IMG/VR virus record: IMGVR_UViG_3300034375_010199
Span: 1 to 20,691 of that record
Strand: one strand, 5' to 3'
DNA length: 20,691 nucleotides
Source: a virus
Numbering within the stretch: position 1 is the first letter of the stretch; every line of letters starts with the position of its first letter. A program made the translations under genes and the position numbers. The notes beneath the pieces were generated by a model. It was not told where the DNA came from, made no database searches, and worked only from the letters and a program-made list of their open reading frames with translations. Positions 3,615 through 15,702 of the stretch are shown here, piece by piece.

Positions 3615-3944
3615 TTATGCGGGTTCGATGATCTCGTCGCCCGGGTCTTTCTGGATGGCGAGCAGGCTTTTATTGCGGAATTCCCGCGCCACGTTTTGCG
3701 ATATCTCGATTTCGTGGCGCGGCGGATTCAGTAGCGGCTGGCACTTCGCGGCGCCCAGCGCATGCAGGTGATGAATCATCAGCGTCATCGCCTCGCCCTG
3801 CTCAGTAATGCCTGACCACTCCATCAGATCGGCCAGCGCTTGGCGGGTGCCGGGGCGAACCCTGAGCCTCAACTCTTCCTCGGCAAGTGCCACGCGCTTC
3901 CTGGCGGTTTTGGCCGAGCGCTCTTCCTGCGGTACTGCTGCCAT
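3615..3944 (-). CDS. Hypothetical protein, possible ribbon-helix-helix type
   Basis: A 109-aa protein with a basic N-terminus (SAKTARKRVALAEEE) followed by ELRLRVRPGTRQALADLMEW (about residues 24-43). That segment looks like the strand and first helix of a ribbon-helix-helix DNA-binding fold, and EQGEAMTLMIHHLHALG (about 48-64) could be the second helix. This assignment rests on pattern only. The C-terminal part (HEIEISQNVAREFRNKSLL) is extra to a minimal RHH protein. The ATG at 3944 follows AGAGG at 7 bases. It is leftward and probably co-transcribed with the gene starting at 4484, 70 bases upstream. If it is RHH, it could autoregulate part of the operon. Confidence 0.75.
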   Translation of the reverse strand: MAAVPQEERSAKTARKRVALAEEELRLRVRPGTRQALADLMEWSGITEQGEAMTLMIHHLHALGAAKCQPLLNPPRHEIEISQNVAREFRNKSLLAIQKDPGDEIIEPA

Positions 3945-4013: not shown

Positions 4014-4484
4014 CTATGCGGCGCATGAATCGACCTTCACTTGGTGCCAGGCGCCTACCGCTTCGAAGATCCGCGCGGCGTGCACCTCGTCCAGCGATAT
4101 CGCTTCGGGAATGGCGATCCAACCTGAGGCCACCATCTGGCTCTGGTTTGCCTCGTCGCGCAGCTTCTTGTAGCAATGCTCGATCACGTCTTCCAGGTGG
4201 TCGGAGAGATAGACGCCATCGGGCGCCACCTCCACCGACTTGCTGTAGCGGTCGCCGCGAGCGTCTATGCAAAGCGCGCTGAGGTAGATCGTCCAGCGGT
4301 GGGGGATACCGCAGACGGCCTGGCCAATCTTCCCGGGCGCGATGTTCTTGAGCGACTTGTAATTGATCATGCCCTGGCGACCGCTGGGGTCAATGTTGAC
4401 CACAGCGACGTGATTGGCTGCCAGCAGCGAGCGGCATGACCGGGCGATGCGCGTCTGCAGGTTATGCGCCTTGCGCTTGCTCAT
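4014..4484 (-). CDS. Conserved hypothetical prophage protein
   Basis: A 156-aa protein that I do not link to a characterised family, although it has the look of a conserved Pseudomonas prophage protein. It starts with a basic segment (MSKRKAHNLQTRIARSC), followed by a probable beta-rich region (VAVVNIDPSGRQGMINY) and a C-terminal helical part ending EAVGAWHQVKVDSCAA. There is no signal peptide or membrane helix. The start at 4484 overlaps the stop of the upstream 80-aa gene by 4 bases (ATGA), which indicates translational coupling. It lies immediately downstream of the RecT-exonuclease pair, so a role linked to recombination is possible but not shown. Confidence 0.78.
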   Translation of the reverse strand: MSKRKAHNLQTRIARSCRSLLAANHVAVVNIDPSGRQGMINYKSLKNIAPGKIGQAVCGIPHRWTIYLSALCIDARGDRYSKSVEVAPDGVYLSDHLEDVIEHCYKKLRDEANQSQMVASGWIAIPEAISLDEVHAARIFEAVGAWHQVKVDSCAA

Positions 4485-4723
4485 AATGCCTCCGCGAGTT
4501 TGCGCAGCGCCTTACGTTCTGCCGCTGTGATAGGCGGCTTGCGGCGCTTGAGGATGGTTTCGGGATCGATCTTCGCGGAGCGTTTCGGCGGGACTGGGTT
4601 GCTGGGTGGGCTTGGCAACTGCGCCACGGTCCCACCAGCAGCCAGGAACTGCGCCGTGCGCTCCGATATTGAGTAGGCGTCCTGGCGGTGCTGCTCGACC
4701 AGGCTTAGGTGGTTGCTGATCAT
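4481..4723 (-). CDS. Small basic hypothetical protein
   Basis: An 80-aa protein of unknown function. The N-terminal half is helical (SLVEQHRQDAYSISERTAQFL). A proline-rich linker (LPSPPSNPVPPKRS) leads to a lysine- and arginine-rich C-terminus (ETILKRRKPPITAAERKALRKLAEAL) suited to nucleic-acid contact. The ATG at 4723 lies 2 bases after the exonuclease stop, with GGGAG just upstream inside the exonuclease gene. The start codon sits in the 12-bp palindrome TGATCATGATCA (4718-4729). Tight spacing on both sides places it in one translational unit with the exonuclease and the following gene. Confidence 0.75.
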   Translation of the reverse strand: MISNHLSLVEQHRQDAYSISERTAQFLAAGGTVAQLPSPPSNPVPPKRSAKIDPETILKRRKPPITAAERKALRKLAEAL

Positions 4724-4725
4724 GA

Positions 4726-5388
4726 TCAGGCTCCCAGGCGATGGGCTTGCGCCCGAGCTTTGTCCGCTACCTCATCAACCATGCGATTCAGTTCCAAGTT
4801 GAACTGGACCAGCTCTTTGTGCAGGTTGGCGATGTAGTCCTCATCGCGGTAAATCGTCTCGATATAGAGCTGGCACTCTTCATCTTGGCGAGAATCAAAG
4901 GACAGGAAGTCCCACCATTTGCGGCCCGTAACGAACATGCAGCCTTGGACCTGCGGCATGTGTTCCTCGGGCATGCCTTCGAGCCAAGTTCTGACGTGTA
5001 TCGCTTCGTTGAAGGGGCACTTCGATTCGGTACCGCCGTCGTCGTTGATAAGTCCGTCTGGCGAACATCCAAGCCAGTCGTACTTCGGGTGGACGATGAA
5101 CTCTGACGGTATGACGATGTTGCCCGTCAGCATCTCGTAGGCGTCTTGAGCCTTTTGTTCTTCGGTGTGACCCCACTTTAAAGAGGCGCTGCTGACGTTG
5201 TGCTTGGACTTCTTTGCCAGCCGCTCGAAGCACAGCTCACGCATGTACGAGGTGCGTGCGCCCATAGGCTCGCGCTTACCATTTTTGTCAGGCTTCCCCC
5301 AGGCCATCACGTCTTTAAAGCGGCTGGCTGTCACGCGCCCAGATCGGTCCGCATGCCACTTTTCTGTGCCCTGAAGCTCCGCTCTCAC
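4726..5388 (-). CDS. YqaJ / lambda Exo-type 5'-3' exonuclease
   Basis: This is a double-strand DNA exonuclease of the PD-(D/E)XK superfamily. It would resect ends to make single-stranded tails for the RecT-like annealase encoded just upstream. Visible motifs are GRVTASRF (17-24), WGHTEEQKAQDAYE (72-85), the catalytic SPDG with Asp111, ESK with Glu121 and Lys123, and the MPQVQGCMFVTGRKWWDF segment (144-161) that is typical of YqaJ proteins. At 220 aa it matches the family length. The start is a GTG at 5388 with GGAGG 7 to 8 bases upstream; it shares one base with the stop of the RecT gene (TAGTG), so the two are translationally coupled. The pairing resembles lambda exo-bet and SPP1/Rac-type systems. 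Confidence 0.93.
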   Translation of the reverse strand: MRAELQGTEKWHADRSGRVTASRFKDVMAWGKPDKNGKREPMGARTSYMRELCFERLAKKSKHNVSSASLKWGHTEEQKAQDAYEMLTGNIVIPSEFIVHPKYDWLGCSPDGLINDDGGTESKCPFNEAIHVRTWLEGMPEEHMPQVQGCMFVTGRKWWDFLSFDSRQDEECQLYIETIYRDEDYIANLHKELVQFNLELNRMVDEVADKARAQAHRLGA

Positions 5389-6377
5389 TACGCAGCCTCC
5401 TCTGAATGGGACTGGTCACCGCCGGGGCCCGTTATGTCGGTAAAGTCGGCATCGACGGTAGCCGCCAAGCTTTTTAGGGCTTTGTGGCATTCCAGGCCGA
5501 TCGCTGCGCGCTGCTTCGGCTTGAGACCTGCCCAGGCGGCCGCGTAGGCGTCGATGTCCTGTTGCCTTGCAACGACCAGGAGGTCTGCGAATACACCGTC
5601 TATTTCCGGTGATGGGGATTTTGGACCAAACGAAACGCCAGCGGCGGCAGCGCTGTTTGCGGCTTGTTTTGTTGGAGTGATATCAATCTCGCCGCCGTAT
5701 GAGTCCTCGAATTCATCGGGCGTATAAACGCCAAGGATCACGTCAGGACAGAAGAGGCGTGCCCATTTCTTGGTCACCAAGTAGGCGATCTGTTGTTTTG
5801 GGTCTTCCGCCCAAAGCGTAGAGTTGCGCGTGCGGACCTGGGTCAGCAGAAGCTCCAGAGTGCGCGGCTCGTCTTCGCCCCGAAAGGTCGCCCAAACCTT
5901 GATGCCGAGCCCTTTTTCATCGTCAAAGCTCCAGGCGGGAACGCGATATTTTTTAAACTCGCCAGTGTCCTCATCCTTCTTGGTCTTACTGGTAACTTCG
6001 CGCATCTTCCCGATGACGTTTTCCCAAGCGCCGAACCATTCAAAGTTCAATCGACCTTTGACTGGCGCCTTGGCGGTGATCACTGCGTTAACAAGCTGCG
6101 CCTCGTAGCTCAATGCGCCGCCGTTGACGATGAACGTTTTCTGCGCCACAGCGAAGGGGTTCATTTGCCACTGCATTGCTTGAAGCACCACCGCCATGCA
6201 GTCGGCTTGGTTCCCTTTAAGGTGTTTCGGGACGGTTGTCACTCCCTTCGACATCATCATCGCGAGGTCGCTCATCGACCGCATGGTGCCAGGGTCGAGG
6301 ATGAGCGCGGCCGCGTTGTGCGATGGATCGTGATAAGTGGCGAGGCCGGTTTGTGCTTGGGTGTCTGTATCGGTCAT
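5388..6377 (-). CDS. recT: RecT-family single-strand annealing recombinase
   Basis: This protein binds and anneals single-stranded DNA produced by the partner exonuclease. The RecT core is visible from about residue 50: CMAVVLQAMQWQMNPFAVAQ, then YEAQLVNAVI, and later the TQVRTRNSTLWAEDPKQQIAY and KKWARLFCPDVILGVYTPDE stretches that are typical of the family. I chose the ATG at 6377 (329 aa), preceded by GGAGAG, over an in-frame start 78 bases upstream that adds a low-complexity Ser/Thr tail. The C-terminus is acidic and polar (DFTDI, then GGDQSHSEEAA), perhaps for protein contacts. It lies 53 bases after a DUF1351-like coiled-coil gene, the same pairing seen in other phages. Confidence 0.92.
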   Translation of the reverse strand: MTDTDTQAQTGLATYHDPSHNAAALILDPGTMRSMSDLAMMMSKGVTTVPKHLKGNQADCMAVVLQAMQWQMNPFAVAQKTFIVNGGALSYEAQLVNAVITAKAPVKGRLNFEWFGAWENVIGKMREVTSKTKKDEDTGEFKKYRVPAWSFDDEKGLGIKVWATFRGEDEPRTLELLLTQVRTRNSTLWAEDPKQQIAYLVTKKWARLFCPDVILGVYTPDEFEDSYGGEIDITPTKQAANSAAAAGVSFGPKSPSPEIDGVFADLLVVARQQDIDAYAAAWAGLKPKQRAAIGLECHKALKSLAATVDADFTDITGPGGDQSHSEEAA

Positions 6378-6430
6378 TGCGCTCTCCGTGGCCGACGTGG
6401 AGTGGGTCGGCCGGCAGATGGAAAGGATGG

Positions 6431-7579
6431 TTAGAAGCGGGTGGCCCGCAGCCAATCGCGAGCAGTGTCGATAGTCACGTCGAAGCCGAGCGCTACAAGC
6501 TCGACAATGTCGTCAGCCGGGGGAGTGGTCGGGTCCACGTCGATGGATTCAACGGAGACGGCGACTACGGCAACAGGGGCGGTTTCAGCCGGGGTGGCAG
6601 TGACAGCGGCCACTGGCGCAGGCGCGGTAGCCTGGGCGCGCAGGCGGGCAAGTTCTTCCTGGTCTCGCTGATACTGGGCTTCGCGCTCGCGCTGCTGGCG
6701 TTGTTGCTCTTCCTGCTGTTCACGCTGCTGGCGTTGCTGTGCCTCCATATCGCGGCGCTGCTGGTCCAGTTCGTCCTGCTGCTGCTTCAACCGCTTGCGG
6801 TCTTCCTCAGCTCGCTGCTTACGTAGCTCCTCGGCTTCGGCGTCGGCGATGCGTTGTTTCTCGCGCAATTCATCTAGTTCTTTCTGCTGGGCCAGCAACT
6901 TAGCAGCAGCTTCTTCTCGCTCAGCGGCAGACTTGAACAGCGCTTCCAGTTGCTCAATGGCGTTGTCGCGAGCGATGGTGCCTTCGGCTTCAAATTCGCC
7001 ATATTCTTCGGGCAGGATCACCGACTCTTTGACACCCTGCAAAATGCTGGAGACGTCTGCGGCGCTGCGGCTTGCATAGGCGGCGGCGACAGAACTGAAA
7101 CGAGTAATTTTTGCCCGGATGGCTTCGACACGCTCAGCCTCGACACGCTCGCGCTCTGCCTTGGCATCAGCTATACGCTTTTCTTCGGCCTTGATCGCTT
7201 CATCGACAGGCTCTTCAATTGTCAGCACACGAGTCCTGAGTGTTTCACCGAATTCCTTGACTTGATTGACGCGAGCCTGAGCTTCTTTGACCTTCTGCTG
7301 ATATGGCACCAATGCGGTTTTGGTGGTCTTATCCAGGGCGTAGCGCACATCGCGGATATCGGCGCGAACTTCCTTCGCATTCGCCAAGCCCTCACTCGTC
7401 GAGCAGTCAACGACCAGCTTCGCGTAGGTGTTCTCCAGGCGAACGATCTGTTCTTCGTGCGGCCGATACTCGGCGATGTCGGTGACCGCTACCGTAGGGG
7501 ATAGGTTTTTTTGCGCGCCTTCAGCTTCGTTCATTTCGAGCGGTTCTTGTGCGTGTGCTTGTTTGGTATTTTTGGACAT
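6431..7579 (-). CDS. Coiled-coil phage protein, DUF1351-like
   Basis: A 382-aa protein encoded upstream of RecT. Residues about 50-135 (from LENTYAKLVVD through EEPVDEAIKAEEKR) follow the DUF1351 pattern, a domain found beside phage RecT genes. Residues about 215-315 form a long, highly charged Gln/Arg/Glu-rich coiled coil, with runs such as QQRQQREQQEEQQRQQRE. An Ala/Pro/Val-rich linker (318-345) then leads to a short C-terminal helical domain (VELVALGFDVTIDTARDWL). The ATG at 7579 (MSKNTKQ), with GAGGG 8 bases upstream, is preferred to an in-frame start 210 bases earlier whose translation overlaps the next gene. Its function is unknown; a structural or accessory role in recombination is inferred from context only. 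Confidence 0.85.
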   Translation of the reverse strand: MSKNTKQAHAQEPLEMNEAEGAQKNLSPTVAVTDIAEYRPHEEQIVRLENTYAKLVVDCSTSEGLANAKEVRADIRDVRYALDKTTKTALVPYQQKVKEAQARVNQVKEFGETLRTRVLTIEEPVDEAIKAEEKRIADAKAERERVEAERVEAIRAKITRFSSVAAAYASRSAADVSSILQGVKESVILPEEYGEFEAEGTIARDNAIEQLEALFKSAAEREEAAAKLLAQQKELDELREKQRIADAEAEELRKQRAEEDRKRLKQQQDELDQQRRDMEAQQRQQREQQEEQQRQQREREAQYQRDQEELARLRAQATAPAPVAAVTATPAETAPVAVVAVSVESIDVDPTTPPADDIVELVALGFDVTIDTARDWLRATRF

Positions 7580-10210: not shown

Positions 10211-11020
10211 TCAGGTTCGTAGGGGAACCCAATACATCCGGCACTGAATTTCATGATTGTCGCCGAGTTCCACCGAAACGGTTTTAGCGGACCGCTCATT
10301 CTCAAAAGGGCCGGTGATGATAGTGTTCCCATCTACTGCGAGCACGGGAATTGCTAGATCTTCAAGCACGGATTCAATTCGGCTCGAATCCACAGGCTGG
10401 GCTGTTATTCTAACCGTCCAGCCATGAAAGTCAGGTCCAACAACCTGGTCAGTGATGGGGGGGTATTTTCCGCTCACCGAGTCCCTGTAGACGATCTCGC
10501 TAAATAGGCGCGGGCCGTCCCGCATAGCGATCAGGGCTTGCTTGGCCTCTTCCTTGGTTTCAAATGGACCTGCGCCTACTGCCAGGCCGATCATCGAAAC
10601 AACTGGGAGGCCGGTGCCGGCAATAGCCTTTATAGTGCGTTGCTGTTCTTGCTCGTCTCTGCATGCTGTCGAAGCCACCCAGCCCTTTTTCAGCCTTGGG
10701 GCCGAGACGGGCTCCACGTCGGCACCGCAGTGCTTGCACTTGATCGCGGCATTCTTGATGGTTTCGGCACACAGCGGGCAGGGCCGGGAGTCAGCTTGCG
10801 CCTGCTCGTGTGGCGGCGATGATCTTCCGCCCAGGAGAACCATAAGCAACCCAGCGAGTGCGATCATGCCGCCGACAATAGTGTGCATCTGGCGGTCCGC
10901 AATGAGCCCCAAGTTGTTCACCCGGCCGCCGGCTCCAGTCGACACGGACACATCCATGCTCAGCGCGAAGATCAGCCAGCAGACGCCGACGATCAGCGCA
11001 AACGTCCCAAATCCCTTCAT
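10211..11020 (-). CDS. Membrane protein with zinc ribbon and SPOR-like repeats
   Basis: A 269-aa protein from the ATG at 11020, which has GGGAGGG upstream; an earlier start adds 12 residues without support. Two hydrophobic segments (about 6-22 and 47-64) suggest a membrane hairpin with both termini cytoplasmic. A zinc ribbon follows: CPLC (81-84) and CKHC (95-98). The C-terminal 150 residues contain two similar units, each ending in a GPFE(T/N) turn followed by a helix (GPFETKEEAKQALIAM near 151-166 and GPFENERSAKTVSVEL near 237-252). They resemble the repeat of SPOR domains, but topology predicts they are cytoplasmic, unlike classic SPOR domains. The function is unknown. As an apparently single-gene unit with its own terminator it could be lysogen-expressed cargo. 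Confidence 0.8.
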   Translation of the reverse strand: MKGFGTFALIVGVCWLIFALSMDVSVSTGAGGRVNNLGLIADRQMHTIVGGMIALAGLLMVLLGGRSSPPHEQAQADSRPCPLCAETIKNAAIKCKHCGADVEPVSAPRLKKGWVASTACRDEQEQQRTIKAIAGTGLPVVSMIGLAVGAGPFETKEEAKQALIAMRDGPRLFSEIVYRDSVSGKYPPITDQVVGPDFHGWTVRITAQPVDSSRIESVLEDLAIPVLAVDGNTIITGPFENERSAKTVSVELGDNHEIQCRMYWVPLRT

Positions 11021-11091
11021 TGGATCCCTCCCGTAATTGAGCCCGCACTTTACCATTCATGGCGTACAGCCACCATTGGAAGGGAGGGCGG

Positions 11092-11290
11092 TCAATCCGG
11101 TTCCTGCGCCTTCAGCCTGGCCAGGCCCTGCTTGATATGCCCTGCGTTTTCCCCGATCGCCTCAAGGGCGCCTCGGACGTTCTGACCTGCATCCGTATGG
11201 CCTTGGCTTTCGACGAGCAGCGTCAACTCCATCAGCGCAGCTTCCAAGGCGAGCTGGTTCTCGTATATGGGTTCCAAAGTATCGGTGAGG
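11092..11290. repeat. About 200-bp direct repeat, copy 1 (copy 2 at 12064-12262)
   Basis: By eye this segment matches 12064-12262 at roughly 80 percent of bases in the same orientation, with long identical stretches such as CGACGAGCAGCGTCAACTCC. The two copies flank an AT-rich insert of about 770 bases holding one cysteine-rich gene. The differences are spread along the length, so it is an old duplication or the result of recombination between related elements. Confidence 0.8.
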
Positions 11291-11325
11291 GGGGGTATTC
11301 TGGTGGTGCTATGTATAAAACTCAA
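11092..11325 (-). CDS. Diverged copy of a small helical protein gene, 5' end rearranged
   Basis: From the TTG at 11325 this encodes 77 aa. From LTDTLEPIYENQLALEAAL onward it is closely similar to the intact 72-aa protein at 12064-12282, including ENAGHIKQGLARL near the end. Comparison shows damage at the front. The position of the paralogue's ATG reads ATA, the paralogue's GGAG-type ribosome binding site is gone, and a G7 tract (11289-11295 on the plus strand) adds two bases relative to the other copy, so the original frame is shifted. Translation would depend on the TTG, which has only a distant AGG upstream. It may be a decaying gene. The protein is helical and acidic and its function is unknown. 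Confidence 0.5.
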   Translation of the reverse strand: MSFIHSTTRIPPLTDTLEPIYENQLALEAALMELTLLVESQGHTDAGQNVRGALEAIGENAGHIKQGLARLKAQEPD

Positions 11326-11373
11326 TAACTAAGATTACCTTTAATAACTTTTGCTGAGCAGCTATAGATACAC

Positions 11374-11412
11374 AAAAAGACCGAAGAGTTACCAATAGCA
11401 GTATCCCTTCGG
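11374..11412. terminator. Strong bidirectional hairpin terminator
   Basis: The arms 11381-11392 (CCGAAGAGTTAC) and 11401-11412 (GTATCCCTTCGG) form a 12-bp stem with one mismatch and one G-T pair around an 8-base loop. The minus strand continues into TCTTTTTG and the plus strand reaches TTTTTT near 11420, so it can stop transcription both ways. It ends 24 bases beyond the stop of the leftward gene ending at 11437. Confidence 0.85.
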
Positions 11413-11436
11413 ACTCTATTTTTTAAAACTTATTTC

Positions 11437-11793
11437 TTAACAGGCGCCAAATAGTGTCGCCGTGAACAGAACAGCTCCGTTCAGATAGACGGTCGCTTTC
11501 AGACCTGTAGGTATGAAAGAACCGCATGTTTCAGCGCAGACTTTGAGCTGGCCGCTTACTGGAATTGAAACCGGTGAAGTCAGACAGTAATCGCCATATA
11601 CAGGGATGGTAAAACAGATTTGATTGGTGGCTTGATTATAACTGGCCCCAACGCACACAGACAATCTCAGAGCTAGAACGCCATCCAGTTGGGGAGGTGA
11701 GCCAGCCTTTGCTCCGAACCCGACTACAGAATAATCAGTCACATGTTCGCTGGATGACGACTTGTTATGCTCTTTGCAGGTACAATCGCTCAT
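11437..11793 (-). CDS. Cysteine-rich protein of unknown function in an AT-rich insert
   Basis: A 118-aa protein from the ATG at 11793 (MSDCTCKEHNKSSSS), with GAGGA upstream; an earlier in-frame ATG lies before the 5' hairpin and is not favoured. It has a polar, serine-rich, cysteine-containing head and then a body rich in Val, Thr, Ser and Gly that looks like a beta-sandwich (LDGVLALRLSVCVGASYN, QICFTIPVYGDYCLTSPVS, LKATVYLNGAVLFTATLFGAC). There are eight cysteines, the last at the very C-terminus. I see no signal peptide. I do not recognise a family. Codon use and flanking sequence are far more AT-rich than in the neighbours, and it has its own terminator, so it is most likely a horizontally acquired moron. 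Confidence 0.72.
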   Translation of the reverse strand: MSDCTCKEHNKSSSSEHVTDYSVVGFGAKAGSPPQLDGVLALRLSVCVGASYNQATNQICFTIPVYGDYCLTSPVSIPVSGQLKVCAETCGSFIPTGLKATVYLNGAVLFTATLFGAC

Positions 11794-11816
11794 TGCAATT
11801 TCCTCTTCCTGAGTAG

Positions 11817-11836
11817 TTGTTGGTGAGTACCAACAA
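11817..11836 (-). promoter_or_regulatory. Perfect 8-bp inverted repeat in the 5' leader
   Basis: TTGTTGGT and ACCAACAA are separated by 4 bases, 23 bases upstream of the start of the cysteine-rich gene. It could be an mRNA leader hairpin or a small operator. Upstream, 11842-12063 is AT-rich non-coding DNA in which I see possible but weak promoter elements (TAGATT as -10) and no open gene. Confidence 0.5.
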
Positions 11837-12063
11837 AACATAATCTAGCCGAGAATAATTATTTAATAAAGGTTGAATGGTAGCCCTTTGATATTAAATC
11901 GAAATCTTAAGTTTTTAGTATCATCGATTTGGCTATAAGGAATATTTACAACAAATGAATTTTATTTCTGTCCAGCTCGGATATAGATAAAAAGCTTCAT
12001 TGCCATTAAGTTTTTATGATTATTTGTCGTATCGTCCGTCGTAGCTTGCTGCTCCCGAGTCAA

Positions 12064-12262
12064 TCAAATCGGCCCTAGAGCCCTCAATCTGGCCAAGCCT
12101 TGTTTAATATGCCCGGCATTCTCCCCGATCACCTCAAGGGCGCCGCGCACGTTATCGCCGACCTCGGCATGGCCTTGCTTTTCGACGAGCAGCGTCAACT
12201 CCATCAGCGCAGCCTCAAGGGCGAGCTGGTTTTCGTAGATTCGTTCCAAGGTATCGGTGAGG
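12064..12262. repeat. About 200-bp direct repeat, copy 2
   Basis: Partner of 11092-11290; see that entry. This copy keeps an intact start codon and ribosome binding site. Confidence 0.8.
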
Positions 12263-12282
12263 GAGTATTCGGGGGAGGGCAT
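12064..12282 (-). CDS. Small helical acidic protein (intact paralogue)
   Basis: A 72-aa protein with an ATG at 12282 and GGAG 9 bases upstream. It is predicted almost entirely helical: a long first helix (LERIYENQLALEAALMELTLLVEKQ), then DNVRGALEVIGENAGHIKQGLARL. It is similar along its length to the damaged copy at 11092-11325. I do not recognise a family; the pattern suggests a helical hairpin or a small oligomeric protein, perhaps a DNA- or protein-binding accessory. The strong conservation of protein sequence between the copies despite many third-position differences indicates that both were under selection for some time. Confidence 0.75.
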   Translation of the reverse strand: MPSPEYSLTDTLERIYENQLALEAALMELTLLVEKQGHAEVGDNVRGALEVIGENAGHIKQGLARLRALGPI

Positions 12283-12324
12283 TGCTCTGTCTCCATAGAG
12301 GGCATGGAAAGCGTAGCAGCAGGC

Positions 12325-12347
12325 AAAAAAACGGCCCGCTTGTGGGC
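12325..12347 (-). terminator. Probable terminator after the DUF2388 gene
   Basis: A short stem, GCCCG (12334-12338) with TGGGC (12343-12347), is followed on the minus strand by a run of seven T. It lies about 120 bases past the leftward gene ending at 12469. The stem is only 5 bp, so strength is uncertain. Confidence 0.55.
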
Positions 12348-12468
12348 GGACCTAAAGGGAATTCTTCAAAGGAGTAGGGCGACTTTGCACTCTGCCCTGT
12401 AAATGCCAGGTGAAAAGGATGTCGCAGAAACGAAAGGTTTGGTGTGGCGTCTTGCTTGAAGGTCGCTT

Positions 12469-12795
12469 TCAGAATGATGTAGCTATCGACTGGGCCAGTT
12501 GCATGTCTGACATGAGCGGAGAAGGATAGGTCGACTGGTAGTATCTGGACGCCTGCTCAAACTCCGCGCCGCGAATCTCCCCGTCCGAACCGATGAAGGC
12601 CAGAGCGTCAGTCTTGGCTGACTTGAAAATCTCAGGCGGTTCGGTCGTGAGGGATGTGGTCGCCCCAATTAAAATGGTTGGCGCCGAAATTGTGAGAAAT
12701 ATCGCTGCGGCGATAGGGTTGGCGCCATCACCTGATACGGCCTGCGTGCTGACCGATGCCAGTAGGGCGATCGCCAGGGTCTTCCATGAGTCCAT
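12469..12795 (-). CDS. Exported DUF2388 family protein
   Basis: A 108-aa protein from the ATG at 12795; a longer frame exists but lacks support. The first 22 or so residues (MDSWKTLAIALLASVSTQAVSG) look like a Sec signal peptide, so the mature protein should be periplasmic. The C-terminal half matches DUF2388, a Pseudomonas family of small exported proteins, at ALAFIGSDGEIRGAEFEQASR and at MQLAQSIA near the end. The family has no proven function. Chromosomal Pseudomonas genomes carry several such genes, so this may be captured host DNA. The ribosome binding site is weak (GGAA about 10 bases upstream). It is a leftward single gene between two terminators. Confidence 0.82.
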   Translation of the reverse strand: MDSWKTLAIALLASVSTQAVSGDGANPIAAAIFLTISAPTILIGATTSLTTEPPEIFKSAKTDALAFIGSDGEIRGAEFEQASRYYQSTYPSPLMSDMQLAQSIATSF

Positions 12796-12856
12796 TCTTC
12801 GTTGCTTCCATTGCGTCCAGAGAGCGCCACAATAGCAGAGCACTTGCCAGAAACAA

Positions 12857-12878
12857 GAAGCCCGGCGCTGGGCCGGGC
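12857..12878 (-). terminator. Terminator after the XRE-ImmA gene
   Basis: The stem GCCCGGC (12860-12866) with GCCGGGC (12872-12878) is followed on the minus strand by TTCTTGTTTC. It starts 7 bases after the stop of the leftward metallopeptidase gene. Confidence 0.75.
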
Positions 12879-12884
12879 AACTCT

Positions 12885-13958
12885 TCAAACTAGGCGCAAG
12901 GGAGCTCTAGCAGACGTCTGATTTGAATTGTCAGGCCCGCCCAGCACCCCTTGTAGCAGCGAGTCGACCTCATCAAGCGGCAGGTTGAGCTGTGCTGCGA
13001 TGGAATCCTTGGTATATCGGTCCTTCCAAAGTTCTTCAAGCACCATTTTCCAGAGCACAGATCTTTCGCGAGGAATTGGGTCTGGCTCTACAGATCTATA
13101 ACCAGCAGACGCCATCTGCTTACACAGCTCTCGGTAATGCCAGTCCGTTAGTAGTCCAACGTCTTTAGCGGTTCGCGCCAAAGCAACGACTGAAACTCCC
13201 CATCTTTTTTTTCCGGATATCAGGGTCCTGATGGATGGTGACGCAGTGAGTTGGGATAAAACATCTTCTCTTGGCATTAAAAGATGAGATGCGAAGGTAT
13301 CTGCCTCTTTCTCGACTTCTCGACCTTCAGGATATCCATGAGAGTGCATTAATAAATGCCCTAATTCATGAGCCGCATCAAACCTGCTGCGTTCTGCGGA
13401 CTTCACCGTATTCAAGAATATGAACGGAGTTCCATCTCTCCAAAAGGAAAAAGCATCAACGTTTTTACCTTCTGACAGGGTAAAGACTCTAACGCCTTTA
13501 GACTCCATTAACTTTATAAGATTGGGGATTGGCCTGAATCCGATCCCCCAATGTCTGCGAATGGACGCGGCAGCGGATCCTGGGTCTTCCGACCTAAGCT
13601 CTGGCAAGTCCGGCGAAGGGAGGTTGAACTTTCCAGAAACCCACTCATTGAAAATATAACCCAACGAGCCACTGGCTATAGCAGCGTCGGCCTGCCTTGC
13701 CGTCATAGCCTTGAGGCTTCTGAAGCTGACCTCTTTTTCGTTCAGCTCATCGATATCGTCCATGTAAAAGAAGCTTACTGGGTAGCCTAAAGCTCGCGCT
13801 AGCGCTTCAATAGTGTCGTCACCCGGGCATGTAATCACTCCCGTATCAATACGGGTCAACGTAATGCTGGAAATTCCCGCCATTTCGGCAAGTTGTTTTT
13901 TAGTAAGCTGCCTGCGCTTTCTAGCCAAAGTCAGCCTTGACAGGTTAAGAGTTGCCAT
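12885..13958 (-). CDS. XRE-family HTH regulator fused to ImmA/IrrE metallopeptidase
   Basis: A 357-aa protein from the ATG at 13958. Residues about 7-62 form an XRE helix-turn-helix (ARKRRQLTKKQLAEMAGIS, then TLTRIDTG). The ImmA/IrrE-type zinc peptidase domain follows, with HELGH at 197-201 and a downstream glutamate-rich helix EKEADTFASHLLMP (about 216-229) supplying the third ligand. The C-terminal part (about 290-340) has another helix-turn-helix-like helical segment (TKDSIAAQLNLPLDEVDSLLQ). Proteins of this class bind DNA and can cleave a regulator or partner in response to a signal; no substrate is known here. The start overlaps the upstream gene by 14 bases, so the two form one operon with its own promoter and operator. 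Confidence 0.92.
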   Translation of the reverse strand: MATLNLSRLTLARKRRQLTKKQLAEMAGISSITLTRIDTGVITCPGDDTIEALARALGYPVSFFYMDDIDELNEKEVSFRSLKAMTARQADAAIASGSLGYIFNEWVSGKFNLPSPDLPELRSEDPGSAAASIRRHWGIGFRPIPNLIKLMESKGVRVFTLSEGKNVDAFSFWRDGTPFIFLNTVKSAERSRFDAAHELGHLLMHSHGYPEGREVEKEADTFASHLLMPREDVLSQLTASPSIRTLISGKKRWGVSVVALARTAKDVGLLTDWHYRELCKQMASAGYRSVEPDPIPRERSVLWKMVLEELWKDRYTKDSIAAQLNLPLDEVDSLLQGVLGGPDNSNQTSARAPLRLV

Positions 13959-14610
13959 TTTGCTTCTTGCTGATGAAGATTTCAGCCTCGTCTCCACGGT
14001 CATCGGTAAATGCTTCGCCCAGAGGCTTATCGTCGACAGGTTCATCTGTTACGAAGATCCGTTCAAAAAAACCTTCGAACTGATCTGACGTAAACGGTTT
14101 TGGCCTGGAAACCTCAACTTGAATACGGTCCAGGTGGGCGGCAACGCAAACAAACCAGATCACCGGGAATGCGCCAGCAGCTTGAGGAGAAGACCCTACT
14201 TTATCGTTACTGAACAAGCCTCGCTGATAAGGTAGGGAGACTAGCCGCCTCGTACCTTCGCCACGCTCAGAAATAGCGTTGGGGGCAACATCCCCGCAAG
14301 CGTGGTCTACGTTTTGAAAGCCAACCATAAGCCCAAGGTCGGCACTGTATACGAGCTCAATGTTGTTGAACTTCCTAGTCACCCATCCTTGCGGCAACGC
14401 TTTAAGCCCAAGACGCATTTGACGGATACCTTCTTGGTAAGCGCGCGTTCCAGGGAAGTTGATTGCATCAATCCCCTCTAGGTACTCAGAACGTGCGGCC
14501 ACTGCGGATTTTGCGATGTGTACGACGGCTTCTCGCGTCATCCCAAGGGACTGGAGTGCTTCCAGTACAGAGGCTGGGTGATCAATCACCAGCGCATTTT
14601 GGTCGGGCAT
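13945..14610 (-). CDS. Unknown partner protein of the XRE-ImmA regulator
   Basis: A 221-aa protein from the ATG at 14610 (MPDQNALVIDHP), chosen because the promoter start point falls near 14636; an upstream in-frame start lies on the -35 box. There is no clear Shine-Dalgarno sequence. The N-terminal 40 residues are helical (ASVLEALQSLGMTREAVVHIA). The middle looks like an alpha/beta fold (NIELVYSADLGLMVGFQNVD, AAGAFPVIWFVCVAAHLDRIQVEVSRP). The C-terminus is very acidic and polar (DEPVDDKP, TDDRGDEAEIF). I recognise no family. Overlap with the ImmA gene suggests a dedicated pair: a peptidase substrate, a toxin or effector, or a sensor. Confidence 0.8.
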   Translation of the reverse strand: MPDQNALVIDHPASVLEALQSLGMTREAVVHIAKSAVAARSEYLEGIDAINFPGTRAYQEGIRQMRLGLKALPQGWVTRKFNNIELVYSADLGLMVGFQNVDHACGDVAPNAISERGEGTRRLVSLPYQRGLFSNDKVGSSPQAAGAFPVIWFVCVAAHLDRIQVEVSRPKPFTSDQFEGFFERIFVTDEPVDDKPLGEAFTDDRGDEAEIFISKKQNGNS

Positions 14611-14619
14611 ATTTGGCTC

Positions 14620-14668
14620 GCATGCTAATTTTCTGTACCTACATTGTAGGCTTAAAAAATTAGCATGC
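14620..14668. promoter_or_regulatory. Operator of the XRE-ImmA module: long inverted repeat around an inner palindrome
   Basis: Two perfect 13-bp arms, GCATGCTAATTTT (14620-14632) and AAAATTAGCATGC (14656-14668), flank a second palindrome, CCTACATTGTAGG (14638-14650), that covers the -10 box. A further copy of the outer half-site, within the 12-mer GCTCGCATGCTA, is at 14700-14711 and repeats 14616-14627. The XRE protein encoded downstream is the obvious ligand. The GCATGC core is also shared with the CI operators. Confidence 0.8.
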
Positions 14669-14670
14669 AA
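14643..14670 (-). promoter_or_regulatory. Promoter of the XRE-ImmA module
   Basis: On the minus strand, TTGCAT (14665-14670) is followed by 16 bases and then TACAAT (14643-14648). Transcription would start near 14636, about 26 bases before the ATG at 14610. The outer inverted-repeat arms overlap the -35 box and the early transcribed region, so binding should repress. Confidence 0.72.
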
Positions 14671-14803: not shown

Positions 14804-15046
14804 TCATCCACGCGCACCATAGAAGTGGTTCAGCGCTATCAGCTCAAACACAGCCACGAAGGCGCAGAGAACAATAAAGCCAGGGCTGAAGACCCTCTTG
14901 CGGCCTGATGAGCCCCAGCTAAGACCAGCCGCGTCGGAGTAGCCGGGAATCATCATAAGGAAAGCCAGGCAAGCAATGACCCCAACCTTGCTCCAGAAGC
15001 TCTGCTCTCGCCATGAGGTCGACGGCTTTCCAAGGGCGGAGGGCAT
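14804..15046 (-). CDS. Small two-helix membrane protein coupled to the CI repressor
   Basis: An 80-aa protein with two likely transmembrane segments (about 19-38, VGVIACLAFLMMIPGYS, and about 55-73, GFIVLCAFVAVFELIAL) joined by a basic loop (GSSGRKRVF). Its ATG at 15046 shares a base with the repressor's TGA (TGATG), so it is translated from the cI mRNA and should be made in the lysogen. No family is recognised. The position corresponds to that of rexA/rexB downstream of cI in lambda, and small membrane proteins there often exclude other phages; that role is inferred from context alone. Confidence 0.75.
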   Translation of the reverse strand: MPSALGKPSTSWREQSFWSKVGVIACLAFLMMIPGYSDAAGLSWGSSGRKRVFSPGFIVLCAFVAVFELIALNHFYGARG

Positions 15047-15702
15047 CAGTAAAACTTCTGCAGTGCCTGCACGACGACCCCAACGATCCGACAGTTCTCG
15101 TCGACCGCTTCGATTGGGTAGCTTGGGTTCAGCGGCTTCAGAAACAGCCGACCGCCATCGCTCACCAGCTTCTTGAATGTCGCTTCATTGCTGTCCCGCA
15201 GCTTGGCTACGACCAGCTTACCTGGCGCGACCTCAGCCTCGGTGTCCACCAGGATCAGCGTGCCCTCGGTGACGCTCTGGCCGGCGGGTGCCGTCATCGA
15301 GTCGCCTTTCACCTTCAGCCAGAACGCTGTGCCCTTGGAGTCGTACTCCGAGAACTCATAGCTGTCCGAGAATCCGGCTGGGTAGGGCTCAACGGCTTCT
15401 GCCCAGGCGCCGGCGGCAACCCAGCTGATTACTGGGTAGCGGAATGATTTGGTGGGTTGCGCGGCGGGGGAGACGTTCGATTCGGAAGTGTCCCGCTCAT
15501 CACCCTCGCCTATAGCCAGCCACTCAGCTCGGAATCCAGTCGCTTTTGCCAGTGCGTAAAGGTTCTCCGGCCTGAGGCTTTTGCTCTCGCCGGTGATCCA
15601 CTGCGTGACGGCAGAATTTGCAACGCCGCAAAGCGATGCAATTTCTCCTTTCTTTTTACCGCTGACCTGTATGGCGCGGGCGATGCGTTCGTGTCTTTCC
15701 AT
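15046..15702 (-). CDS. cI: CI-type phage repressor, HTH plus S24 autoprotease
   Basis: A 218-aa repressor that maintains lysogeny. The N-terminal helix-turn-helix spans about residues 5-60 (KKKGEIASLCGVANSAVTQWI), and the C-terminal S24/LexA-type peptidase spans about 88-215. The self-cleavage site is Ala97-Gly98 in SWVAAGAW. The catalytic serine is Ser135 in KGDSM and the lysine is most likely Lys177 in ATFKKL. RecA-stimulated cleavage on DNA damage is therefore expected. The start is the ATG at 15702. A TAATAT -10 box at 15710-15715 would put the transcript start at or next to the ATG, so the maintenance message may be leaderless, as for lambda cI. It is divergent from cro across three operators and coupled to the membrane protein gene downstream. 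Confidence 0.94.
   Translation of the reverse strand: MERHERIARAIQVSGKKKGEIASLCGVANSAVTQWITGESKSLRPENLYALAKATGFRAEWLAIGEGDERDTSESNVSPAAQPTKSFRYPVISWVAAGAWAEAVEPYPAGFSDSYEFSEYDSKGTAFWLKVKGDSMTAPAGQSVTEGTLILVDTEAEVAPGKLVVAKLRDSNEATFKKLVSDGGRLFLKPLNPSYPIEAVDENCRIVGVVVQALQKFY

Follow-up and report, generated by a model that had tools for sequence, protein, structure and literature searches.

Gene order and contents of the locus

The stretch of DNA analysed here (the window) is an IMG/VR virus record of 20,691 bases, corresponding to a lambdoid-type Pseudomonas prophage. Its leftward operon on the minus strand is arranged in the order CI, RmrT–RmrA pair, DUF2388, leader, small gene, cargo gene, second small gene, ZnR (a zinc-ribbon-like protein) and DUF1654, and reaches the genes for RecT, YqaJ and a cytosine methylase. 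The two copies of the small gene are referred to as smallB and smallA, and the following features are relevant:

4726–5388, minus strand: YqaJ-type exonuclease (PF09588, E 5.5e-25)
5388–6455, minus strand: RecT-family annealing protein (PF03837, E 1.8e-37)
10211–11056, minus strand: ZnR gene, one flank of the slot (phrog_8032)
11092–11303, minus strand: smallA, downstream copy, start lost; homology to relatives ends at 11303
11338–12037, minus strand: cargo cassette common to the window and contig L035 (AT-rich upstream part, gene, terminator), 78% identical
11370–11425, minus strand: cargo terminator hairpin followed by a T-rich tail (-18.6 kcal/mol, z -4.6)
11437–11793, minus strand: cargo gene, 118 aa, eight cysteines
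12064–12282, minus strand: smallB, intact copy, upstream in transcription, 72 aa (phrog_12397, E 1.7e-32)
12318–12440, minus strand: conserved leader of about 110 nt with terminator, which precedes the small gene, adjoins it in many loci and anchors the slot on the left
12469–12795, minus strand: DUF2388 gene, other flank of the slot (PF09498, E 1.8e-15)
12885–13955, minus strand: RmrA-like antitoxin (HTH and M78/ImmA protease) of a RosmerTA pair (PADLOC RmrA, E 3.6e-134)
13945–14670, minus strand: RmrT-like toxin of the RosmerTA pair (PADLOC RmrT, E 2.4e-25)
15046–15702: CI-like repressor gene

The DUF2388 ORF opens at 12888, and its conserved start at about 12795 was placed from the ORFs of relatives; likewise, the RmrA-like start was set from the HMM start at residue 31–33. 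ZnR additionally matches PF10571/PF13248 below the cut-off. Between CI and DUF2388, next to the slot, the predicted RmrT toxin adjoins the predicted RmrA HTH-ImmA antitoxin; the closest relative of the window, L015, has a DUF3037 gene in that interval. RosmerTA (PMC10440598) is reported to be most strongly represented among P. syringae prophages of the lambdoid clade (PMC13182921). The pair in the window corresponds to it in matching both RmrA and RmrT, and differs in being a neighbour of the slot, not its flanked cargo.

The small-gene copies form a direct repeat of 200 nt (11092–11291 and 12064–12263; spacing 972) with 81% identity, which confirms the initial annotation of two segments about 80% alike as direct copies of a small gene. 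No other repeat family of the window comes near this length, the next one measuring 40 nt at 70%. Both copies lie on the minus strand and match phrog_12397 (E 2e-29 and 2e-32), and Pfam and NCBIfam searches returned no match for either. The smallB ORF has an ATG start and a purine-rich ribosome site; for its product, a two-helix hairpin is predicted (AlphaFold2, mean pLDDT 89.7), with no significant relative in the PDB. The median dN/dS of 0.13 between random allele pairs (331 usable of 600 drawn) indicates that the small gene is under purifying selection. A literature search, confined to PMC and run without PHROG 12397 as a query, recognised no paper on the slot or the small gene, which is weak evidence of absence.

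The reported loss of a start in one copy holds for smallA, whose ORF opens only from a TTG at 11325, where no ribosome site is visible. There is a 2-nt length change near the old start, and 35 bases, between the end of homology at 11303 and the end of the cargo cassette at 11338, take the place of the start and ribosome site. Since the frame is still open, the start loss would be either recent or without cost; judged by its sequence, smallA is probably a silent remnant. In contig L035, the small gene adjoining the cargo (5769–5986, plus strand) has an in-frame TAG and a 1-nt gap, reflecting either a pseudogene or sequencing errors.

The insert (11304–12063) has a GC content of 40.5% versus 57.0% for the contig, and the contig's 760-bp GC minimum (40.3%) falls on it, the lowest value elsewhere being 47.5%. 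This bears out the annotated AT-rich insert, which holds one cysteine-rich gene with its own terminator. For the cargo gene, position 11841, where the longest ORF starts, was rejected in favour of the ATG at 11793, supported by the homologue alignment; the same methionine is present in L035 and L084–L089. The alignment of eight sequences contains 44 invariant columns, all eight cysteines among them. The cargo protein matches nothing in Pfam, NCBIfam, PHROG or PADLOC and has no significant sequence relative in the PDB. It is modelled as a six-stranded beta domain of low confidence (pLDDT 65.7), and, with the best Foldseek match in solved structures no better than E 0.43, a functional assignment by fold was set aside. 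None of 200 shuffled sequences folds as well as the cargo terminator, and comparable hairpins follow the gene in L035, L084 and L085. A promoter scan returned a single promoter-like site, located inside the cargo gene, which is no more than in shuffled sequences.

In the leader, a conserved 5' block and a terminator are separated by about 16 variable nt. Its reading as a structured RNA was rejected: in an alignment of 27 copies, the terminator helix is the one structure with support, and no base pair has changes in both of its positions. The single-sequence fold has a z of -1.7, and an Rfam search gave no match in the window. Leader-model matches occur in 70 of 149 sampled Pseudomonas genomes, the weaker of which may be due to chance; some lie beside unrelated chromosomal genes, including a presumably PbpG-like one in L140.

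The slot in related phages and genomes

For comparison, the best 80 of 237 viral relatives with small-gene loci were fetched. Clustering covered flanks of at least 400 bases from these 80 loci and from both copies in the window, with near-identical contigs kept; L001 and L002, which are loci of the window itself, and the duplicate contig L083 were left out. The 76 upstream flanks of the small gene fell into 21 clusters, one of which holds 50, and the 82 downstream flanks into 27 clusters, the largest with 13 members; thus, the loci have the upstream flank of the small gene in common and differ in the downstream one.

The census of slot contents comprised 86 loci, i.e., the 80 viral ones and six from genomes picked for matching; 43 are informative in having at least one of DUF2388, leader and ZnR. 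Six of these 43 (L003, L004, L007, L009, L024 and L130) have the empty contiguous site DUF2388–leader–small gene–ZnR, with several allele types of the small gene represented. In eight loci, leader and small gene are separated by an insert (L015, L017, L033, L041, L042, L054, L129 and L134), and in eight, additional sequence lies between the small gene and ZnR (L035, L052, L056, L058, L066, L129, L131 and L132). Among the loci classified in this way, several are near-duplicates of one another. The initial annotation had anticipated relatives with a single copy and no insert, or with different inserts at the same place; both exist, the former in the six empty sites and the latter in L015, L129, L041, L054, L033 and L017/L134. 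The opposite outcome it had named, in which both copies would be stable and nothing would vary between them, was not encountered at this locus. Two small-gene copies within 6 kb are present in 11 of 135 unique viral loci.

The site, hence, has conserved flanks with contents that differ among relatives, and defence genes are among those contents, RosmerTA being the case in the window. Elsewhere, PADLOC matches were obtained for five of ten hand-picked large ORFs near small genes and for none of the other five. Products encoded near small genes in other loci include a SMEK/REase-like TPR protein (L055), PDC-M63B (L014), an AAA_15 protein (L011), a distantly RmrA-like protein (L004) and, with a small gene on either side, an HNH protein (L071).

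The cargo itself is present in one other virus contig, L035 (93%), in another arrangement, between one small gene and ZnR, without a second copy. It also occurs at six loci of the genome collection, in P. libanensis, P. fragi, P. viridiflava, two Paracidovorax and Burkholderia latens. In P. libanensis (L084), it lies between homologues of the window genes at 4014–4484 and 3615–3944, which are neighbours in the window; accordingly, the cargo also sits at another place in this kind of phage. At the P. fragi locus, the cargo was the only window gene matched within the fetched 20 kb. Among 398 sampled Pseudomonas genomes, the cargo is found in two, both included in the six loci, and DNA matches to slot segments in 180, so that a rare cargo meets a common anchor.

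Two further contents were recorded. In L129, a 96-aa insert ORF between leader and small gene (4416–4706, plus strand) contains QVVAGTNY, which presumably resembles a stretch in cystatins; a cystatin-like reading based on this motif was set aside, as Pfam gave nothing. In L062, paired ORFs of 181 and 260 aa (1224–2562 and 4467–5805, plus strand) are repeated on both sides of the small gene.

The mosaic of the two small-gene copies

The closest relative, L015, is 98.6% identical to the window on the ZnR side, over 6.2 kb that begin within the small gene and end at position 5094, versus 93.5% on the other side (DUF2388 and leader); identity to L015 thus steps at the small gene. L015 carries another insert in its slot; towards ZnR, this insert is bordered by an intact small gene, and towards DUF2388 by a remnant of 27 nt from the start of a small gene, i.e., of an upstream copy. 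Compared with the intact L015 gene, smallA has three differing sites in codons 25–72 and eight in codons 8–24, and smallB 33 and two, respectively. In other words, smallB resembles the 5' part and smallA the 3' part of the L015 gene, and the two copies are reciprocal mosaics. Sites informative between the copies form two blocks in L015 and L011, and the switch falls in the following tract, in which the crossover would lie:

12180–12213, minus strand: 34-nt tract identical in both copies (partner 11208–11241), positions 70–103 of the intact gene

In block permutations, p was about 2e-5 for L015 and L011 (the floor of 50,000 shuffles), 8e-5 for L129, 0.006 for L041 and 0.009 for L035, the block pattern being inflated by private mutations in the partly degenerate 5' end of smallA; it was not significant for L003 (p 0.12), L009 (0.069) and L010 (0.30). 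The statistic detects blocks in either order, so block order was read from the site strings instead; swapped parents also gave small p values and, the statistic being order-blind, are no independent control.

An in-silico loop-out, joining the smallB 5' part to the smallA 3' part, yields a gene 97.7% identical to that of L015 (five differences in 219) and 95.0% to that of L011 (11 differences), while single window copies reach 86.2% and 90.7%, respectively. Control chimeras were made from 69 non-redundant alleles; of 2022 such chimeras, none reached 95% to a third allele with both parents below 92%. For the reciprocal join (smallA 5' plus smallB 3'), the putative donor allele, the best match is 81.4%; lacking a close match, the donor is unsampled. 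The same test on eight tandem pairs in seven other loci (L233, L055 and L249 had been dropped in de-duplication) found no comparable chimerism, the largest gain being 1.9 percentage points (L074), compared with 7.0 for the window. The footprint is therefore particular to the window among the pairs sampled. With all eight tested pairs lacking comparable chimerism, the rule that tandem small genes mark recent cargo swaps was rejected, and a flanking duplication is no general mark of slot cargo.

Origin of the arrangement and its relation to known systems

Directly seen are the two copies, sites in relatives that are empty or filled with something else, and the reciprocal mosaic. They are best explained as follows, with a probability of roughly 0.65 for the explanation as a whole. 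The leftward early operon of this lambdoid-type Pseudomonas prophage would contain a slot for accessory genes, and the cassette would lie between two copies because a homologous crossover inside the small gene joined two different phage sequences. Given the reciprocal mosaic, the simplest reading is one crossover inside the small gene, with the cargo molecule between the products. An intact gene of the L015/L011 type would have been split, its 5' part going to the upstream copy and its 3' part to the downstream copy; the foreign DNA would consist of the 3' part of the upstream copy, the cassette and the 5' part of the downstream copy. The event would be a gain, the incoming DNA a circle or a co-infecting phage already carrying a small–cargo–small arrangement, and the recombination may have been carried out by the phage's own RecT/YqaJ pair, in which the RecT-family protein is the candidate agent and the YqaJ-type exonuclease its presumed partner.

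Several observations fit this explanation less well. L015 is itself a mosaic, with another insert and the 27-nt remnant, and is no clean empty parent; the donor allele is without a close match; and in L035 the cassette has no second copy beside it. A plain single crossover would moreover leave a complete start on smallA, so that something else must have changed as well, either through truncation of the donor copy or through a deletion afterwards.

An opposite direction of events, in which small–cargo–small is ancestral and the single genes of L015 and L011 arose by deletion (loop-out) between copies, is unlikely, yet it is the most serious competitor. It would directly account for the closeness of the loop-out product to both genes, and the remnant in L015 suggests that two copies may once have existed there. 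Against this direction stand the empty single-copy arrangement in six of 43 informative loci with several allele types, the rarity of the cargo (two of 398 Pseudomonas genomes) and the different L015 insert, for which a deletion must also account. Of the initial claim of gain by homologous recombination at the small gene, the recombination thus stands on the footprint in the copies, which either gain or loss of the cargo could have left. Similarly, the proposed cargo exchange site is upheld by empty and differently filled slots in relatives, but the duplication is not the rule for slot cargo.

That the copies are old tandem paralogues between which the cargo was inserted later by illegitimate recombination, the likeness to L015 resulting from selection and chance, is improbable. 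Tandem small genes are indeed not rare (11 of 135 unique viral loci), and the pairs tested elsewhere look like old paralogues; however, the two-block pattern and the 97.7% loop-out are unmatched in the eight other pairs or the 2022 control chimeras. Still less probable is an assembly artefact, in which the contig was joined through the 34-nt tract of two phages in one sample. The tract has the length of common assembly k-mers, and the virus record may be a fragment; yet a molecule with the cargo between two such tracts would still be needed, and the separate contig L035 independently has the small–cargo–ZnR order. Transposition or a site-specific cassette system is the least probable: the AT-rich, discrete 700-bp unit common to L035 and the placement between two other phage genes in P. 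libanensis would suit it, but the insert has one conserved ORF without a transposase match, the flanking copies (200 nt, 81% alike) are unlike short identical target duplications, and the shared cassette ends differ between relatives.

Under the crossover explanation, the cargo can be placed among known accessory elements. Morons of lambdoid phages are extra genes which are absent from relatives, have an odd base composition and carry their own promoter and terminator. The cargo resembles them in its absence from the same place in close relatives, a base composition unlike that of the phage, its own terminator and its position between operon genes; it differs in being flanked by two copies of a neighbouring gene, and a promoter of its own is putative.

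For the antiviral hotspots of P2/P4 prophages, Rousset et al. (2022, PMC9122126) suggest homologous recombination as part of the exchange. These hotspots share conserved flanks, exchangeable content and defence systems with the present locus. They belong to another phage type, however, and here the crossover footprint is readable in duplicated anchor genes and the flanked cargo is without known function. Rad52-like recombinases, RecT of phi80 included, tolerate short, diverged homology according to De Paepe et al. (2014, PMC3945230), and the presence of a RecT-type recombinase and exchange at short diverged homology fit that mosaicism. In the same paper, direct repeats are described as usually lacking in phage genomes, whereas the window keeps one.

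The locus is a case of ordinary mosaicism among phages, whose footprint is unusually easy to read. The gain of a single accessory gene by temperate phages is usually inferred from mosaic alignments in which the joints are already blurred; here, the joint can be read from one gene in two complementary halves around a cargo and a near-perfect single-copy counterpart in a sister phage. The unnamed small-gene family is, furthermore, a landmark by which cargo for defence and conversion can be located in Pseudomonas prophages. Rather doubtful is the broader idea that leader and small gene (phrog_12397) form a standing anchor of Pseudomonas prophages, whose end copies would allow RecT to bring in cassettes for defence or conversion and take them out again; if true, this would amount to an integron-like exchange without an integrase.

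Two observations beyond the slot were made. A second, diverged small-gene copy lies at the very edge of the prophage records G001, G011, G014, G023, G032, G037, G038 and G040, so that members of the family may stand at either end of such prophages. Of 87 fetched loci, 36 contain a near-invariant terminator motif (12848–12878 in the window, minus strand), with 41 copies altogether; each copy lies on the operon strand between unrelated genes, and the motif is a possible shared joint for cassette shuffling.
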